Assembly (NCBI RefSeq): GCF_026420845.1 | Contig: NZ_JAOWCB010000010.1 | Span: 62,001 to 126,000, forward strand | Length of the DNA: 64,000 bases | From: Streptomyces sp. PR69 | GTDB taxonomy: Bacteria > Actinomycetota > Actinomycetes > Streptomycetales > Streptomycetaceae | Direction of reading: 5' to 3' | In this document: positions 56,133-64,000 of the stretch, piece after piece | Position numbering within the stretch: the stretch's first letter is position 1 | Layout: each line of letters opens with the position of its first letter | Program-made: the position numbers and the translations under genes | Notes under the pieces: generated by a model | Told to the model about the DNA's origin: nothing | Databases searched by the model: none | Seen by the model: only the letters and a program-made list of their open reading frames with translations

Positions 56133-57152
56133 TCACGCCACCTGCGGGTGCAGGAGCCTGGCCAGCAGGTCGTCCAGTGTGACCATGCCGGTGAGCCGTC
56201 CGCTGTCGTCGCGTACGACGGCGAAAGAGGCGCGGCGGCGGCGCAGCTGCTCGATGGCGTGGCTCACGGTGTCCCGCGCGGTCAGTTCCGGTACCGGGCG
56301 GGCGAGTTCCCGTGCGGTGGCGGTGCGGCCGCGCCCGCGCGCGATGAGTGCGTCGCGGGCGTGGACGGAGCCGACGACCAGCGGTCCGTCGCGGACCAGC
56401 AGGCGGCTGTGATCGTGCTCGGCTGCGGTCGCGAGGATGGCGTCGAGGCCGGCGTCGGCGGGCACCGCGGTGATCTCGGCGGCCGGGATCTGGAGGTCCC
56501 CCACCGGCGTCTGGGGCTCGGTGAGCGAGTTGGTGATCAGCTCGGAGTCGTCCTTGCTGATCAGGCCGAGCCGCTCGGACTCCTCCACCAGGTGGGTGAG
56601 CTGTTCGCGGTTGTGGACCGAGGTCAGCTCGTCGCGCGGGGTGACCCGGCACAGCCGTACCAGACTGTTGCTCACCTTGTTGAGCACCCAGATCAGCGGA
56701 CGCACCGCCGCCACCACGCCCCGGAAAGGCGGTGAGAGCAGCATCGCGGAGCGCTCGGGGTGGGCGATGGCCCAGGACTTGGGCGCCATCTCGCCGACCA
56801 CCATGTGCAGGAACACCACGACGATCATGGCGACGGCGAAAGCGATGCCGTAGCTGAGGGCGGTGGGCAGGCCGAGTCTGTGCAGCAGCGGGTCGAGTTC
56901 GTGTGAGATCGCGGGCTTGGACACCGAGCCCAGGCCAAGCGTGCACACGGTGATGCCGAGCTGGGCGCCGGCCAGCATCAGCGACAGCTCACGCATTCCG
57001 GCGAGTGCCGCCTTGGCGCCGCGCGCGCCTTCGGCCGCGGATTTCTCCATGCGGTGCCGTTTGGCGGCGACCAGCGCGAACTCGGCGGCGACGAAGAATC
57101 CGCTGCCGATCAGCAGCAGGACGGTGACGAAGAGCGCCATCGGGAAACTCAT
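56133..57152 (-). CDS. CNNM/hemolysin C-like transporter with CBS domains (second of pair)
   Basis: 339 residues. The DUF21 membrane domain (about 1–195) starts LFVTVLLLIGSGFFVAAEFA and includes GAQLGITVCTLGLGSVSKPA and VVVFLHMVVGEMAPKSWAIA. Two CBS domains follow (DLQIPAAEITAVPADAGLDA, then LDDLLARLL near the end). It lacks the CorC_HlyC C-terminal domain seen in its partner. ATG 57152 overlaps the upstream gene's stop (57149) by 4 nt. The family transports or senses Mg2+/divalent cations; here substrate is inferred only. Confidence 0.88.
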   Translation of the reverse strand: MSFPMALFVTVLLLIGSGFFVAAEFALVAAKRHRMEKSAAEGARGAKAALAGMRELSLMLAGAQLGITVCTLGLGSVSKPAISHELDPLLHRLGLPTALSYGIAFAVAMIVVVFLHMVVGEMAPKSWAIAHPERSAMLLSPPFRGVVAAVRPLIWVLNKVSNSLVRLCRVTPRDELTSVHNREQLTHLVEESERLGLISKDDSELITNSLTEPQTPVGDLQIPAAEITAVPADAGLDAILATAAEHDHSRLLVRDGPLVVGSVHARDALIARGRGRTATARELARPVPELTARDTVSHAIEQLRRRRASFAVVRDDSGRLTGMVTLDDLLARLLHPQVA

Positions 57153-58510
57153 GCCGACTCCTCCTCACGGGCTTCGTCATGGGTGGCGTCGGGATCGGGC
57201 AGCCGCTCCAGGCGGACGCGCTCGGGCACGTGCCGGTCGAGGGTGCGTACGTCGATCACCGCGCCGCCGCCCTCGGGCAGCGGGACGGTGAGCCGGTCCC
57301 CGACGGTGGGGAAACGGCCGAGCCGGTCGATGATCAGGCCGGCCACGGTGTCGTAGTCCTCCTCCTCGGGCAGTTCGATGCCGGTGGCCTCGGCCACCTC
57401 GTCCAGGCGGCGGCCGGCGTCCACCAGCCAGCCCTGCCCGTCCGCGACCGCGACCTCGATGACGATGTCGGACTCATCCGCGATGTCGCCGACCAGTTCC
57501 TCGGCGATGTCCTCGAAGGTGACGATGCCGGACACGCCGCCGTGCTCGTCCAGGACCACGGCGAACTCGTCGCCGGACGAACGCATCTGCTCCACCGCGT
57601 CCGGAAGGGGCAGGGTGTCCGGCAGCAGCAGCGGGCGCCGGGCCAGCGCGCCCGCGGTCGTGGCGGTCATGCGGCTGGCGGGCAGCCGCATCAGTTCACG
57701 TACGCCGAGGACGCCGTAGACGTCGTCGGGGTGGTCGCCGAGGATGGGGTAGGTGGAGTGGCCGTGCTTGCCGATGAGGTCGATCGCCTCGGCGGCGGTG
57801 GCGTCCTTGCGGACGAAGACGGCGTCCACGCGCGGCACCATCACCTCGTCCAGCGTCCGGTCGGAGAACTCCAGCGCGTGGTCCAGCAGCGCGGCGGTGT
57901 CCTTGGGCAGCTGGCCCTGCTCGTGGGACTCGCCGATCAGGTGGCCGAGCTCCTCCAGGGTGGCGCCGTGGTGCAGTTCCTCCACGGGCTCGATGCCGAC
58001 CTTGCGCAGCAGCTTGTTCGCGGCGCCGTCGAAGACGTGCACGACGGGGCCGACGACGTTCAGGTACGCGAGCGTGGAGGCGGCCAGGGACTTCGCCAGC
58101 CGCTCCGGCACGGCGATGGCCAGGTTCTTCGGCGCCAGCTCGCCGAGGACCATCTGCACGACGGTCGCCCCGACGAATGCGAGCACCACCGAGATGGCGC
58201 TCACCGCGGCGTCGGGCATCCCGAGGCCGGACAGCGCGGGCTTGAGCAGCGCGGACACCGAGGGTTCGGCGATGAAGCCGACGACCAGGCCGGTCACGGT
58301 GATGCCGAGCTGGGCTCCCGAAAGCATGAACGACAGCCGCTCCAGCACCTTCAGAGCGCGAGCGGCCTTCTCGTCCCCGGCAGCGGCCTCACGAGCCAGG
58401 GCGAGCCGGTCGGCGGAGACATAGGCGAATTCCTGGGCGACGAAGTAGCCCGTGCCGGCGGTCAGGACGAAGACGGCCAGCAGGCCCAGCCAGGCTTCCA
58501 CGGCACTCAT
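57149..58510 (-). CDS. CNNM/hemolysin C-like transporter with CBS and CorC_HlyC domains
   Basis: 453 residues. DUF21 (about 1–200) has FVLTAGTGYFVAQEFAYVSA, GAQLGITVTGLVVGFIAEPS and VLGELAPKNLAIAVPERLAK. A CBS pair (about 220–345) reads TLDEVMVPRVDAVFV and EFAVVLDEHGGVSGIVTFED. The C-terminal CorC_HlyC domain (about 360–440) reads EDYDTVAGLIIDRLGRFPTV. It is translationally coupled to the shorter paralogue downstream, which suggests a heteromeric complex. Confidence 0.9.
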   Translation of the reverse strand: MSAVEAWLGLLAVFVLTAGTGYFVAQEFAYVSADRLALAREAAAGDEKAARALKVLERLSFMLSGAQLGITVTGLVVGFIAEPSVSALLKPALSGLGMPDAAVSAISVVLAFVGATVVQMVLGELAPKNLAIAVPERLAKSLAASTLAYLNVVGPVVHVFDGAANKLLRKVGIEPVEELHHGATLEELGHLIGESHEQGQLPKDTAALLDHALEFSDRTLDEVMVPRVDAVFVRKDATAAEAIDLIGKHGHSTYPILGDHPDDVYGVLGVRELMRLPASRMTATTAGALARRPLLLPDTLPLPDAVEQMRSSGDEFAVVLDEHGGVSGIVTFEDIAEELVGDIADESDIVIEVAVADGQGWLVDAGRRLDEVAEATGIELPEEEDYDTVAGLIIDRLGRFPTVGDRLTVPLPEGGGAVIDVRTLDRHVPERVRLERLPDPDATHDEAREEESA

Positions 58511-59247: not shown

Positions 59248-59354
59248 GGCGGCGGGGCGCGGGCCAGCTTGGCCGGCGCAAGTGCCCGCTTTCGGCCTTT
59301 CCTGCCATGCTTGGCTGGAGCAGGCCCCTCCCCGTCCTCGACCCGCCTTATGCT

Positions 59355-59370
59355 TCTACGTGCTTGTAGA
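59355..59370. promoter_or_regulatory. Shared operator/promoter element, copy 1 (TCTAC-N6-GTAGA)
   Basis: Inverted repeat TCTAC-GTGCTT-GTAGA, extended to 7-bp arms CTTCTAC/GTAGAAG. The right arm overlaps TAGAAG, a possible -10, and the centre is 57 nt before the 59419 start. Two more copies occur at 61676 and 63810. Confidence 0.7.
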
Positions 59371-59418
59371 AGGCCCGTGGCGGAACCGGGCCTCGCACAC
59401 ACCGGGGAGAGGACACGT

Positions 59419-59637
59419 ATGGCTTCGATCGACCTGGACAAGGTGCTCGACAAGGCGTGGGCGGACAAGAGCCTGCCCGAGATCCTCGCCGCTCCGGTGG
59501 GAGCGCTCAAGGGTGTCTCCGACCGTGACGGCGAGCTGCTTCAGGAGGCGTTCGGGGTCAAGACCGTCGCCGACCTCGCCGAACTGAAGTACGTCCGCTG
59601 GGCGCAGGCGCTCGCCGCGCTCAACGCGGCCAAGTAA
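59419..59637 (+). CDS. Small helix-hairpin-helix-like protein
   Basis: A 72-residue protein of unknown function. MASIDLDKVLDKAWADKSLP, then EILAAPVGALKGVSDRDGEL and FGVKTVADLAELKYVRWAQA: the GALKGVSDRDGELLQEAFGVKT part looks like a helix-hairpin-helix of the 'LxGVG..A..L...fgi.TV.DLA' kind, used for DNA or protein contacts. ATG 59419 has GGGGAGAGG about 8 nt upstream. It lies 55 nt before spo0M on the same strand, behind operator copy 1, so the two are likely one transcript. Confidence 0.8.
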   Translation: MASIDLDKVLDKAWADKSLPEILAAPVGALKGVSDRDGELLQEAFGVKTVADLAELKYVRWAQALAALNAAK

Positions 59638-59692
59638 CCGGCACCACTCACACGAAACACACGCACGCACGTACAAGGGAGTGGACGCCACG

Positions 59693-60709
59693 ATGGTGTT
59701 CAAACGACTGCTCGGAGCGCTCGGCGTGGGCGGCCCCACGGTCGACACGGTCCTCGACCCGGGAGCCACTCATCCCGGAGGCACCCTGACCGGCCAGGTA
59801 CATCTCAAGGGCGGCGAAGCCGACTTCGACATCGAGCACATCACCCTGGAACTGGTCGCCCGGGTCGAGGCCGAGCACGACGGCGGCGAGTCCGAGGGCG
59901 TGGTCACCTTTGAGCGGTTCACCGTCGGCGGCGGCTTCCGCCTCGCCGAGGGCGAGCAGCGCAGCATCCCGTTCAGCGTGATGCTTCCCTGGGAGACGCC
60001 GGTCACCGAGTTGCACGGGCAGGCCCTCGGCATCATCCTCGGCGTCCGCACTGAGCTGGCGGTGGCCGGCGCGAAGGACAAGGGCGACCTGGATCCGCTG
60101 GCCGTGCGGCCGCTCCCGGCGCAGGAGGCGATCCTCGAAGCCCTCGGGCAGCTCGGCTTCGGCTTCAAGTCCGCCGACCTGGAGTACGGCCGCATCGGCG
60201 GCACCGGCCAGCAGCTGCCGTTCTACCAGGAGATCGAGCTGGCCCCGGCGCCGCAGTACGCCCACCAGGTCAACGAGATCGAGGTGACCTTCCTGGCCAA
60301 CCCGGGCGGCATGGAGATCGTCCTGGAGGCCGACAAGCGCGGCGGCTTCTTCTCCGAGGGCCATGACGCGCTCACCCGCTTCACCGTCGGCCACCACGAC
60401 ATGCGCGACTGGAACACCGAGGTCGACGGCTGGATCCGCCAACTGGTCGAGCACCGGGCGTCGTACGGCTCACACGGCTCGTACGGTTCCCACGGCTCGT
60501 ACGGTTCCCACGCCGCCTACGGACACGACGGCCACCACGGACACGACGATCACCACCACGGCGGCCACCGCTCCGGCCCCGGCATGGGCACCGCCATCGC
60601 CGCCGGCGCGGCCGGACTCGCGGTCGGCGTCGTCGGCGGCATGGTCGCGGCCGAAGTCGTCGACGAGGTCGGCGACTTCTTCGAGGGCGACGAGGAAGAA
60701 GACGACTGA
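59693..60709 (+). CDS. spo0M: Spo0M-like sporulation control protein with His-rich tail
   Basis: 338 residues. The arrestin-like Spo0M domain (about 1–240) starts MVFKRLLGALGVGGPTVDTV and contains LTGQVHLKGGEADFDIEHIT and LPWETPVTELHGQALGIILG. Then come three near-identical Ser-Tyr-Gly-Ser-His-Gly units, a His/Asp/Gly-rich stretch (about 280–303, possible metal binding), a hydrophobic helix (AIAAGAAGLAVGVVGGMVAA) and an acidic end. ATG 59693 has GGGAG about 11 nt upstream; GTG 59681 is the alternative. Spo0M affects sporulation and envelope in Bacillus. It lies in the same operon as the HhH protein. Confidence 0.88.
   Translation: MVFKRLLGALGVGGPTVDTVLDPGATHPGGTLTGQVHLKGGEADFDIEHITLELVARVEAEHDGGESEGVVTFERFTVGGGFRLAEGEQRSIPFSVMLPWETPVTELHGQALGIILGVRTELAVAGAKDKGDLDPLAVRPLPAQEAILEALGQLGFGFKSADLEYGRIGGTGQQLPFYQEIELAPAPQYAHQVNEIEVTFLANPGGMEIVLEADKRGGFFSEGHDALTRFTVGHHDMRDWNTEVDGWIRQLVEHRASYGSHGSYGSHGSYGSHAAYGHDGHHGHDDHHHGGHRSGPGMGTAIAAGAAGLAVGVVGGMVAAEVVDEVGDFFEGDEEEDD
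60461..60514 (+). repeat. 18-bp tandem repeat inside spo0M
   Basis: Three units of 18 bp (60461–60478, 60479–60496, 60497–60514), the last two differing at one base. They encode the Ser-Tyr-Gly-Ser-His-Gly/Ala repeats. Confidence 0.9.
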
Positions 60710-60853
60710 CAGGGCGGGGCGGGCCGAGACGGGCGCTCACGCTGGCCGTGCGACGGAAGCTCCGCGACGATTCGGAAGCCGTCCGCCTTGGCGGGCGGCA
60801 ACCGGCGTCGCGGAGGCGCGGCTTTTGGGAGTGAGACGCCCTTCATCCGGTCA

Positions 60854-61558
60854 TCACCAGGCAACTGGTTCCAGGGGAGTGCGCCCGTCCTGTCCGTAAT
60901 AGGCGTGTACCAGTGAGATCCGGGCGACTCGCCGGCCTTCTGTCACCGCGCGCTCCGCGGCCTTTCGCCCGGTGAAGGCCCGCTGCTCTCGTTCGTACAC
61001 CTCGTAAGGCTCGGTGCTGGGCGGGGGGCCGAAGAGGCGGAACTCGTCTCTGTCCTGGACCAACGTGATGATGAGACGGTCATGAGTCCGGGGATCGCGG
61101 TACTCGTACCGTTCGGAGGTGGAGGCGTAACCAGGGAGGAACGGCGCCTGTGAGCCGGTCCACCGGCCGTTGCCGAGCGCCTTTCGCCATGTCTCACCGA
61201 CCGTCCGCAGGTCGCCGTCGAAGACGACATACCGCTCCAGCCGCCACTGGCAGCTCAGCGGGCCAGGGGCTTCGCCTTCGAAGGCGACATGACGCAGGCA
61301 GTGGTCCGCGGCTGCGGCGCCGAGCTGCCGCGGTGCACCCGGCAGGGTGCCGACGGCCTCCTCCAGGCGGCGTTCGGCCGCCTCCTTCGCCTTGCCGCTC
61401 GCCGCGTTCACCTCAGCGGTTCGCGACGGGCCCGCCATCGGAGCCGCCACCCACGCGTAGCCGTACCACCCCGCTACGGCCAGGACTGCCAGCACAGTCA
61501 TCACCCTTGCCGTATCGGCCATCCGGCTCCGCGCCCGCGGGCTTTCCCACCTTGCCAT
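60854..61558 (-). CDS. Hypothetical membrane-anchored protein
   Basis: About 234 residues, family not recognised. An N-terminal transmembrane segment (VMTVLAVLAVAGWYGYAWVA) is followed by an extracellular domain with two cysteines about 16 residues apart (DHCLRHV and LSCQWRL) that could form a disulfide. There is an Arg/Glu-rich C-terminus containing YEVYEREQRAFTGRKAAERA. The ATG at 61558 has GGGAGAG at good spacing; the frame opens further at 61585. It is divergent from terB-like with operator copy 2 between them, 118 nt from this start. Between spo0M and this gene (60710–60853) an inverted repeat CTCCGCGACG/CGTCGCGGAG at 60760–60815 may terminate spo0M. Confidence 0.75.
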   Translation of the reverse strand: MARWESPRARSRMADTARVMTVLAVLAVAGWYGYAWVAAPMAGPSRTAEVNAASGKAKEAAERRLEEAVGTLPGAPRQLGAAAADHCLRHVAFEGEAPGPLSCQWRLERYVVFDGDLRTVGETWRKALGNGRWTGSQAPFLPGYASTSERYEYRDPRTHDRLIITLVQDRDEFRLFGPPPSTEPYEVYEREQRAFTGRKAAERAVTEGRRVARISLVHAYYGQDGRTPLEPVAW

Positions 61559-61675
61559 ACCGCGACTCTCCCAAGCCCGTGTCACCGAACAGCAACGGAT
61601 CCGTCCGGAATCCGGCAGATCCTCACTGACACAGATCCTCGAAATCTCGGGAACTCAGCAGCCGAGCCGCTAGTT

Positions 61676-61691
61676 TCTACGTTGCTGTAGA
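61676..61691. promoter_or_regulatory. Shared operator/promoter element, copy 2 (TCTAC-N6-GTAGA)
   Basis: TCTAC-GTTGCT-GTAGA; the right arm overlaps TAGATA. The centre is about 70 nt before the TerB-like start at 61753 and lies between divergent genes. Confidence 0.7.
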
Positions 61692-61752
61692 TAAAACCGG
61701 GCAGCGGACCGTCATCAGGACGGCCTGGCCCGACCGACTGTTTGGAGTTCTC

Positions 61753-62208
61753 ATGGCCCTGTGGGACCGCATCAAGGAATCCGCCACGCAGATGCAGACC
61801 CAGCTGGTGGCGAAGAAGAACGACCTCAAGAGCGGCGCCTTCCGCGACGCGAGCATGGCGATGTGCGCACTGGTCGCGGCGGCCGACGGCACCATCGATC
61901 CGTCCGAACGGCGGCGCGTGGCCCAGCTGATCGCCACCAACGAGGTGTTGCAGAACTTCGACGCCATGGACTTGCAGCGCCGCTTCGAGGACAACCTGAA
62001 CAAGCTGACTGCCGACTTCGACTTCGGCAAGGTCAGCGTCCTGCAGGAGATCGCCAAGGCGAAGAAGAAGCCCGCCGAGGCCCGTGCCGTCATCCAGATC
62101 GGCATCGTCATCGGCGGCGCCGACGGCGACTTCGACAAGACCGAGCAGGCCATTGTCCGCGAGGCGTGCTTCACGCTCGACCTGCCGCCGCACGAGTTCG
62201 ATCTCTGA
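61753..62208 (+). CDS. TerB-family tellurite-resistance-like protein
   Basis: 151 residues, all-helical TerB fold with two metal-binding-like acidic loops: CALVAAADGTIDPSERRRVA at about 38–57 and IGIVIGGADGDFDKTEQAIV at about 115–134. The leading MALWDRIKESATQMQTQLVA and EACFTLDLPPHEFDL at the end are typical of the Streptomyces TerB. TerB proteins are linked to membrane stress and Ca2+-binding partners (TerC/TerD). No other ter genes are adjacent. A TTGGAG ribosome site lies about 5–10 nt upstream. Confidence 0.9.
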   Translation: MALWDRIKESATQMQTQLVAKKNDLKSGAFRDASMAMCALVAAADGTIDPSERRRVAQLIATNEVLQNFDAMDLQRRFEDNLNKLTADFDFGKVSVLQEIAKAKKKPAEARAVIQIGIVIGGADGDFDKTEQAIVREACFTLDLPPHEFDL

Positions 62209-62340
62209 TCGCCCTGCGCCGTCCGCGCCGGGCGGACACCGACGCGTCGGCCCGGCATGCGGCTCGGCCGGCCGTCGAGATCCCGGCGTTGTCCAGCTTT
62301 CGGCGGATCCGAACCCCCGGGATGTGCGCCCCCGATCACA

Positions 62341-63753
62341 TCACCGGATGTCGGCGGGGTCGAGATCGGCTCCGACGACGAGGGTCACCACCCCCGCTGT
62401 GCCGTCCGCGCCCTGCTCCACCTGTGCGCCGGGGAGCCGGGCGGCCAGCGCCTCGGCCTGTTTGTCCAGGCCCTGCGGATGAGCGACCGCGGTGGCGCGG
62501 GTGTTCTCCGGGGCGTTGCCCGTGCCGACGACGGTGAGGCCCGCCTCGCGCAGCTTCTCGGCGACGGCCGCGGCCCGACCTGTGACGCCCGTGCCGTTGA
62601 GGACCTGGACGCGCACGGAGGAGGCGTACACCGGGTTCTTCGCGGCCGCCAGCAGCCGGTCCTTGTCGACCTCCTTGTCCTGGGCGAGGGACGTGAACAG
62701 GTCGGCGGCCTGCGGGTACTGCCACACGATGTTGGCCTTGTCGGTGGCCACATCCGCCTCGCGCGGGTAGTTGGGGACGGTGAGGAAGGTCAGCCGCTCG
62801 CTCGGGATGCCCTGGACCTCGGAGGCGAGGCCGTACAGCGGCTTGACGCCGGCCAGGTCCTCGTCCGTGGTCAGCGACTTGGTGGCGGACTGCAGAAAAC
62901 CGTACAGCGCGTTGGGGCTGGTCAGCTTGGACTGCGCCTTCCTGGCCAGGGCGTCCATGAATTCCTGCTGGCGGCCGATGCGCCCGATGTCGGAGCCGTC
63001 GCCGATGCTGTAGCGGGCGCGGACGTAGCCGAGCGCTTCCTCGTCCTTGACGGTCTGGCAGCCGGCTTCCAGGTCCAGGCGGGCCTTCTCGTCGTGGATG
63101 GCCTGCTCGGGGCAGACCTCTATGCCGCCCAGGGCGTTGACCATGCCTTTGAAGCCCTGGAAGTCGACCGACATGAAGTGGTCGATGCGCAGGCCGGTGT
63201 TCGCCTCGACGGTCTTGATGGTGCAAGCGGCGGCGCCGGCCACCTCGCCGCCGGCGCCGCCGATGGCGAACGCCTCGTTGATCTTGAAGTGGTGCGGGGC
63301 GGACGTGGTGCCGTCGCCCTTGTCGCACGAGGGTATTCGCACCCAGGAGTCACGCGGGAGGGACACCACAGTGGCCCATTCCCTATTCGCCGGGATGTGC
63401 AGCACCATCAGCGTGTCCGACTGCATGGTGGTCAGACCCCGGCCGTACTCGGCATTGTCACCGTCCCGGCTGTCGGAGCCGACGACCAGGATGTTCTTCG
63501 AGCCCGGACTGAGGTTGACGGGGCGGTCACCGCCGAGTTTGTTGTCGACGTCGGCGGAGCTGATGTTGCCGTTCAGCTCCTGGTACACCCACGCGCCGAC
63601 CCCCGCGACGCCGAGGATGAGGACCGCGAACGCTCCGGCGGCCCAGGTCAGGATCCGGCCTCGCCTGGTCAGCCGCACCGGCCAGCCGCCGACCGGAGCA
63701 CTCCGCCGCCTGCCCCTGCCGCCCACCGGCGCTCCCTCCTCTGCGCGGTCCAT
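62341..63753 (-). CDS. LytR–CpsA–Psr (LCP) family protein with LytR_C domain
   Basis: 470 residues. Basic cytoplasmic N-terminus, a transmembrane anchor at about 33–55 (ILTWAAGAFAVLILGVAGVG), then the LCP domain with ILVVGSDSRDG, MVLHIPANREWATVVSLPRD and GYVRARYSIGDGSDIGRIGR. The arginines and aspartates that bind polyprenyl pyrophosphate are present. A C-terminal LytR_C domain (about 365–465) starts VRVQVLNGTGVTGRAA. LCP proteins ligate teichoic acid-like or capsular polymers to peptidoglycan. Operator copy 3 lies 57–72 nt upstream. The ribosome site before ATG 63753 is weak. Confidence 0.93.
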   Translation of the reverse strand: MDRAEEGAPVGGRGRRRSAPVGGWPVRLTRRGRILTWAAGAFAVLILGVAGVGAWVYQELNGNISSADVDNKLGGDRPVNLSPGSKNILVVGSDSRDGDNAEYGRGLTTMQSDTLMVLHIPANREWATVVSLPRDSWVRIPSCDKGDGTTSAPHHFKINEAFAIGGAGGEVAGAAACTIKTVEANTGLRIDHFMSVDFQGFKGMVNALGGIEVCPEQAIHDEKARLDLEAGCQTVKDEEALGYVRARYSIGDGSDIGRIGRQQEFMDALARKAQSKLTSPNALYGFLQSATKSLTTDEDLAGVKPLYGLASEVQGIPSERLTFLTVPNYPREADVATDKANIVWQYPQAADLFTSLAQDKEVDKDRLLAAAKNPVYASSVRVQVLNGTGVTGRAAAVAEKLREAGLTVVGTGNAPENTRATAVAHPQGLDKQAEALAARLPGAQVEQGADGTAGVVTLVVGADLDPADIR

Positions 63754-63809
63754 CCGGCCTTTCAGCCGCTGCTGAGCGTTCGGTGCCTGCGGGCACCGGA
63801 CGGCGGAAC

Positions 63810-63825
63810 TCTACATGTATGTAGA
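63810..63825. promoter_or_regulatory. Shared operator/promoter element, copy 3 (TCTAC-N6-GTAGA)
   Basis: TCTAC-ATGTAT-GTAGA. On the reverse strand the right arm overlaps TAGAGT; the centre is about 65 nt before the LCP start at 63753. Confidence 0.7.
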
Positions 63826-63958: not shown

Positions 63959-64000
63959 TCACAGAGGTGTCGCGGCGTGCAGGATGAGGACCATCGTCAC
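63959..64000 (-). CDS. Possible 3' end of a reverse-strand gene (partial)
   Basis: The last 14 codons before the right edge read VTMVLILHAATPL and a TGA (63959–63961) on the reverse strand. It is too short to identify and could be chance. Confidence 0.2.
   Translation of the reverse strand: MTMVLILHAATPL

Follow-up and report, generated by a model that had tools for sequence, protein, structure and literature searches.

The closest described systems are the BlaI/BlaR1 and MecI/MecR1 pairs of Staphylococcus aureus, in which a winged-helix repressor of family PF03965 stands beside a membrane zinc metalloprotease with an HEXXH...E signature, and a palindromic operator lies both at the repressor's own promoter and at the target promoters. 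The zinc ligands of BlaR1 are His201, His205 and Glu242, and the sensor-domain construct comprises residues 332-585 (excerpts of PMC9834060). A BlaI-family motif consisting of inverted GTCTAT repeats five bases apart, with paired sites upstream of the targets, is also described, and the regulons of BlaI_0696 and BlaI_1845 of Clostridium thermocellum include blaR1 genes, a putative peptidoglycan-synthesis homologue and hypothetical genes, with no Ter or Spo0M genes in the passages concerned (excerpts of PMC8457756). Here, we analysed a stretch of 64,000 nt from Streptomyces sp. PR69 (contig NZ_JAOWCB010000010.1, positions 62,001 to 126,000; hereafter, the window), where an inverted repeat, TCTACA-N4-TGTAGA, precedes genes for a small HhH protein and Spo0M, for a TerB protein and for a LytR-CpsA-Psr (LCP) ligase. 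Judged from sequence, this element is very probably the operator of a BlaI/MecI-type repressor that is encoded nearby together with a BlaR1-like membrane metalloprotease.

The locus shares with the S. aureus systems the PF03965 repressor, the neighbouring metalloprotease and the palindromic operator at its own and target promoters. Unlike BlaR1, however, the protease has 310 aa and no recognised sensor domain, and the targets are Ter, Spo0M, LCP and TatA/DedA-like genes rather than genes for a beta-lactamase or a penicillin-binding protein. With BlaI_0696 and BlaI_1845, it has in common paired sites, autoregulation and half-sites (GTCTAT/GACTAT) near TCTACA, although the half-site and the spacing differ (excerpts of PMC8457756).

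Three exact copies of TCTAC-N6-GTAGA lie in the window at the positions given by the first-pass annotation (Table 1), and there is no fourth copy, even with one mismatch; the shuffled window holds on average 0.01 exact copies and 0.32 at one mismatch. The repeat centres precede the start codons by 56.5, 69.5 and 64.5 nt, in keeping with the annotated distances, and the letters TAGAAG, TAGATA and TAGAGT, which had been read as possible -10 hexamers, are present at the downstream arms. The whole genome (6.57 Mb, 104 contigs) contains six copies. In addition to the three in the window, two are situated 1.38-1.45 kb beyond its end, in the gap between a divergent blaI-type gene and terD, and the sixth is on contig 18, upstream of a second HhH-spo0M operon with its own, divergently placed BlaI-type gene (locus L008). 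Since a BlaI-type gene adjoins the two copies past the window end, the missing regulator appears to lie next door, and this repressor is the most likely regulator of the window sites. The second HhH-spo0M-terB set (L008:4809-6395) has an intact operator and otherwise looks decayed, with spo0M matching in two pieces and terB over the last 32 residues only.

An important question is where the signal of this motif resides. The raw count of the 10-base pattern showed no enrichment over its backwards reading (6 versus 6 in this genome and 394 versus 415 in 120 relatives), and such counting was therefore abandoned in favour of position, tests that start from the genes, and a 12-base form. The signal is the clustering, the promoter position and two extra bases, not the raw 10-base count, and the better form of the motif is TCTACA-N4-TGTAGA. 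Across 31 genomes of the genus, there are 48 instances of this exact form and none of its backwards reading. Sites for the consensus, as for the named-locus and promoter counts below, were chosen at a minimum of 11 matches out of 12. Among 101 distinct sites, positions 2, 4, 5 and 12-15 are invariant and positions 1, 3 and 16 almost so; A predominates at position 6 (88, with 12 G and 1 T) and T at position 11 (82, with 14 C and 5 A), and the four bases in the centre are almost uninformative. The two extra bases also separate the 75 exact 10-base sites found among the matches listed from 21 genomes of the genus: a regulon homologue follows 35 of the 36 sites that carry A6 as well as T11, 18/26 that carry only one of the two and 1/13 that carry neither, compared with 0/29 backwards-reading control sites. 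The resulting total of 54/75 assigned sites is slightly favourable, as the TatA- and DedA-like queries were drawn partly from the same loci. At up to two mismatches, the 12-base form has 33 places in this genome (the six regulon sites and 27 others) versus 40 for the backwards reading, so that the 27 others are mostly chance; one of the two-mismatch sites, between the second blaI and the second HhH gene (C18:145492), may be real.

Is the motif conserved upstream of the target genes? For these tests, a gene-first design was chosen so that the motif does not select the genes: 61 genomes of the genus were searched with TerB, BlaI, Spo0M, TerD1 and LCP, the upstream regions of 25-30 loci each were taken, and at least 11 of 12 matching bases counted as a hit. 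Sites were found upstream of 28/30 TerB relatives (the remaining two match at 10/12 and 9/12), 19/30 TerD1 relatives, 17/30 Spo0M relatives (within 500 bp) and 14/30 BlaI relatives (within 250 bp). Among the LCP relatives, 6 of 13 with at least 55% identity carried a site, versus 0/12 below that value. In the same upstream regions, 89 permuted half-sites gave no hit or, once, a single one, and none at all for TerB and TerD. Only spacing 4 gives sites in these sets, with a single Spo0M exception at spacing 5. Conservation upstream of orthologues, which the first-pass annotation had suggested checking, was thus borne out both here and in the named loci below.

A further set comprised 80 loci from a BlaI-alignment scan (the named loci; 78 from Streptomyces, one from Kitasatospora and one from an unplaced actinobacterium), which hold 148 sites in 1.41 Mb, a density that is not a genome-wide rate; eight permuted controls gave 0. 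The promoters of terD1, terB, spo0M, HhH, LCP or blaI hold 138 of the 148 sites. A site is present at the promoter of terD1 in 44/44 cases, terB in 28/31, spo0M in 27/30, HhH in 4/4, LCP in 8/13 and blaI in 56/80, and 36 sites serve a divergent blaI and terD pair. Genes lying downstream in the operons have none in these loci (protease 0/75, terD2 0/6). Sites are likewise absent at the tested paralogues (LCP 0/12, TerB 0/4). Together with the conservation at orthologues, the motif thus withstood two of the refutation tests named in the first-pass annotation. Five further distant TerB paralogues (L438-L442) and a partial match (L436) were likewise siteless, the TerB upstreams inspected being those of the 30 best loci, 20 more and then seven more, short of every distant paralogue.

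The presence of the site is associated with that of the repressor. A site-bearing terB occurs in 34 of the 61 genomes (counting G016, where a 12/12 site precedes a terB matching in pieces), and each of these 34 also contains a BlaI match at E <= 1e-35, as do 6 of the 27 others (Fisher p ~2e-11, kinship ignored). In six genomes without a close BlaI, the TerB genes (76-81% identical) have a site in 0/6 cases; these may represent a separate lineage and are not proof of loss, because the BlaI-bearing genomes G030, G036 and G042 carry a second, equally siteless terB. Outside the genus, 265 genomes of the class contain 19 exact 12-base dyads versus 5 backwards. Of 15 such loci inspected, one (L424) lies beside distant BlaI/protease relatives and another (L412) has a TerD relative ~0.8 kb away, while the other 13 show no regulon homologue within 1.5 kb. 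As these dyads are mostly without regulon homologues, the regulon seems to be restricted to Streptomyces and its near relatives.

The repressor scores 85.1 bits against PF03965 (cut-off 22.6), and its paralogue at L008 scores 71.7. Among solved structures, its nearest relative is M. tuberculosis BlaI (Rv1846c; structure 2g9w, E 1.7e-12), with which it has a DLAYTTV stretch in common. For a model of a 92%-identical relative (L321; mean confidence score, pLDDT, 76), Foldseek ranks 1-8 were 2g9w and MecI chains (best E 3.0e-6, template modelling score ~0.4-0.5). A CopY/TcrY copper repressor was considered and rejected (TIGR02698, 23.9 bits versus a cut-off of 121.95); the 158-aa protein contains no cysteine. 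In the protease, H168-E169-x-x-H172 and the later E206 are invariant in 15 sequences; membrane helices are predicted from its sequence and a low-confidence model (pLDDT 65), whose six best Foldseek matches are all BlaR1, with weak E-values of 0.066-0.54. Peptidase_M48 was the only Pfam domain found in its 310 aa, and no penicillin-binding sensor domain was recognised, so BlaR1-type beta-lactam sensing cannot be assumed. In this genome, none of the genes that immediately follow the six sites encodes a beta-lactamase or a resistant penicillin-binding protein.

The promoters at the sites are of different types. In 25/27 Spo0M and 4/4 HhH promoters of the named loci, the operator is directly preceded by a TANNNT hexamer (in most cases TATGCT), and the HhH-spo0M operon probably uses this -10 upstream of the site. 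In the TerB promoters of the same set, TANNNT overlaps the first operator base in 19/27 cases. In addition, GGAAC-N17-19-GTT, an element of the extracytoplasmic function (ECF) type, is present in 13/30 TerB upstreams of the genus (shuffles: mean 0.1, largest 1), and in 12 of these 13 the GTT directly adjoins the site or shares one base with it. In Corynebacterium glutamicum, sigma-E and sigma-H/sigma-E promoters have the consensus GGAAC-N18-19-GTT (excerpts of PMC10012870). With the downstream arm as a possible -10 at TerD and LCP (see below), each arrangement would place the promoter or the start under a bound dimer, which fits repression.

An ECF-like element also lies within 150 bp of 10/30 TerD1 and 8/30 Spo0M relatives. 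For TerD1, it occurs in 10 of 11 relatives without the operator versus 0/19 with it, and for Spo0M in 8 of 20 relatives without the operator in that stretch versus 0/10 with it; element and operator coincide only at TerB (12 of the 28 sited upstreams). This pattern suggests that, within a family, some copies are controlled by BlaI and others by an ECF sigma factor, and that terB receives both inputs, with the reservation that the split was noticed after the fact and that the siteless genes may be one or two lineages, not independent events. The siteless genes with GGAAC-N17-19-GTT are L218, L231, L235, L237, L238, L240 and L242-L245 for TerD1 and L187, L199, L200, L207, L208 and L213-L215 for Spo0M. 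An ECF-type promoter was also seen on 7 of 9 siteless TerB genes (L271, L273-L276, L281, L282).

These data raise the question of whether another kind of factor could account for the dyad. The first-pass annotation had proposed one regulator or an alternative sigma factor. A single regulator probably does co-control Spo0M, HhH, TerB and LCP, but a promoter of an alternative sigma factor, with the downstream arm as its -10, is very unlikely. That arm, with the T at position 18, does give TANNNT in 42/48 TerD and 8/8 LCP promoters of the named loci and could serve there; it fails at HhH/Spo0M (0/31) and TerB (0/27), where TATGCT stands upstream of the site at Spo0M/HhH and 12/28 sited TerB upstreams have the ECF-type promoter instead. 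Both arms are nearly equally invariant in the 101 distinct sites (a result that the selection at 11/12 or better favours), only one spacing occurs apart from one match, and the sites between blaI and terD serve genes on both sides. What is found at the targets is a symmetric dyad with promoter registers and types that differ, not an asymmetric -35/-10 pair in one register at all of them.

It is also unlikely, if less so, that an unlinked protein binds the palindrome and that blaI is near it merely as a target itself. Some site-bearing terB genes do lie away from any blaI within the 6 kb examined (e.g., L047, L052, L082, L093). Nevertheless, the 34/34 association of site-bearing terB with a close BlaI, the paralogous BlaI-protease pairs beside similar sites and the similarity to the known BlaI motif (excerpts of PMC8457756) argue for BlaI. 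An action of the dyad as RNA is highly improbable. Its arms could form a 6-bp stem closed by a 4-nt loop in a 5' leader, but the 101 distinct sites contain no compensatory change, and variants at position 6 or 11 break the pair (20) or give G-T (12), which is weak evidence alone because the 11/12 threshold excludes most double changes. Moreover, the two sub-threshold TerB upstreams (10/12 and 9/12) do not restore pairing, the same upstreams contain no permuted stems, and a -10 adjoining the site would leave part of the 5' arm untranscribed.

The BlaI-type operator thus remains the preferred reading, and from the known family and the operator position we infer repression by BlaI and release by proteolysis. 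In the proposed two-gene unit, a winged-helix BlaI-type repressor, presumably this particular BlaI, would bind TCTACA-N4-TGTAGA as a dimer, overlapping or abutting the core promoter, and would block RNA polymerase at terD, terB, HhH-spo0M, the LCP gene and its own promoter. The BlaR1-like membrane metalloprotease would be activated by a signal, probably from the envelope or membrane, and would then cleave the repressor, so that the whole gene set would be derepressed together. The nature of the signal is suggested by the family names of the targets (LCP, TatA-like, DedA-like, Ter, Spo0M) and by the probable membrane position of the protease. In its widest form, the proposal is tentative, and we hold it as possible: a BlaI-type repressor, paired with a BlaR1-like protease that lacks a sensor, would act in Streptomyces as a switch for envelope/membrane stress, derepressing TerD, TerB, the arrestin-like Spo0M, LCP and TatA-like proteins as one module (DedA-like proteins via paralogous pairs), the same families being split with an ECF sigma factor and both inputs being fused in 42 bases at terB.

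Several observations weigh against the assignment to BlaI. The operator core here is TACA-N4-TGTA, whereas the classical BlaI/MecI operator is TACA-N2-TGTA (excerpts of PMC7253601), and the protease model is of low confidence. No site was found within the searched range at 24/80 blaI and 5/13 LCP genes of the named loci, and in the genus sample it is absent at 7/13 LCP and 16/30 BlaI genes. Six BlaI-bearing genomes have no site-bearing terB (G001, G008, G009, G020, G040 and G044, the last with a 9/12 match); G031 (a draft of 560 contigs) has sites at Spo0M and LCP and no BlaI match at E 1e-15, and G010 has a 10/12 terB site and only a distant BlaI. Finally, the second BlaI paralogue (L008) and more distant ones lie beside similar sites, which leaves the assignment of BlaI to copy ambiguous, and the two BlaI genes of this genome may share sites.

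The kind of regulator is already known. No description of the regulon, of the sensorless protease partner or of the ECF-plus-operator terB promoter was found in the literature covered, that is, titles and abstract openings, with subscription journals mostly outside coverage. To our knowledge, the physiological role and the inducing signal of Ter-domain and Spo0M proteins are unclear. For these proteins, the present data provide a candidate regulator together with a defined regulon and its exact operator, in a genus open to genetic work; the activator of the protease, once found, would tell what they respond to. The data also suggest that BlaI/BlaR1-type pairs serve beyond beta-lactam resistance.

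Table 1 Features of the window and the neighbouring locus. Window coordinates are continued past the window end (64000); the coordinate in locus L007 is the window position minus 58000
Feature	Position	Strand	Evidence or context
Probable -10 hexamer TATGCT abutting operator	59349..59354	+	Same-register TANNNT in relatives' promoters
Operator copy 1, TCTACGTGCTTGTAGA	59355..59370	.	48 nt before HhH start codon 59419 (+); also in relatives' HhH/Spo0M promoters
Small protein, 72 aa, called HhH in the first-pass annotation	59419..59637	+	Weak Pfam match only, DUF4332 E 0.0082, below cut-off
Spo0M, 338 aa	59693..60709	+	PF07070 E 3.6e-80
243-aa protein between spo0M and terB	60857-61585	-	No Pfam/NCBIfam match at E 0.01
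ECF-type promoter GGAAC-N18-GTT, GTT abutting operator	61650..61675	+	TerB upstreams of relatives
Operator copy 2, TCTACGTTGCTGTAGA	61676..61691	.	61 nt before terB start codon 61753 (+)
TerB, 151 aa	61753..62208	+	PF05099 E 9.5e-27
LCP ligase, 470 aa, with LytR_C domain	62341..63753	-	PF03816 E 4.1e-45, PF13399 E 1.2e-16
Operator copy 3, TCTACATGTATGTAGA	63810..63825	.	56 nt before LCP start codon 63753 (-)
BlaR1-like metalloprotease, 310 aa	63959-64891 (only 3' end, 63959..64000, inside window)	-	Peptidase_M48 E 5.5e-18
BlaI-type repressor, 158 aa	64898-65374	-	PF03965 E 5.9e-24
Operators in blaI-terD gap	65382-65397 and 65430-65445		
terD1	65499-66074	+	TerD E 3.8e-87
214-aa protein	66175-66819	+	
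terD2	66854-67438	+	TerD E 1.6e-46

Several of the remaining sites precede a gene for a small TatA-like protein (PF02416). Such proteins, of 54-75 aa, are encoded after operator sites or within the terD operon at L323:11519-11743, L363:6369-6530, L398:6538-6699 and L385:13774-13995. In L070 and L092, this gene lacks its own site within 250 bp, and in L434 it stands directly behind terD; for these reasons, it appears to belong to the terD operon in the three loci. An ion-channel gene (L400:15070-16038; Ion_trans, E 2e-44) shares an operator-bearing gap with a TatA-like gene, and a neighbour in L386 looks similar. DedA-like genes (VTT domain, PF09335) are also preceded by sites, often beside more distant BlaI-protease pairs. 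While two distant DedA-like relatives (L078, L358) showed no operator match, 11-12 of the 12 operator bases match at L046, L059, L066, L074 (= L312), L087, L089, L294, L295, L302, L304 and L307. Together with the distant BlaI-protease pair, the DedA-like genes possibly form a second, paralogous circuit.

Upstream of the HhH gene, at 56133-58510 of the window on the reverse strand, lie two overlapping membrane-protein genes that by eye have the look of CNNM/CorC-type transporters.

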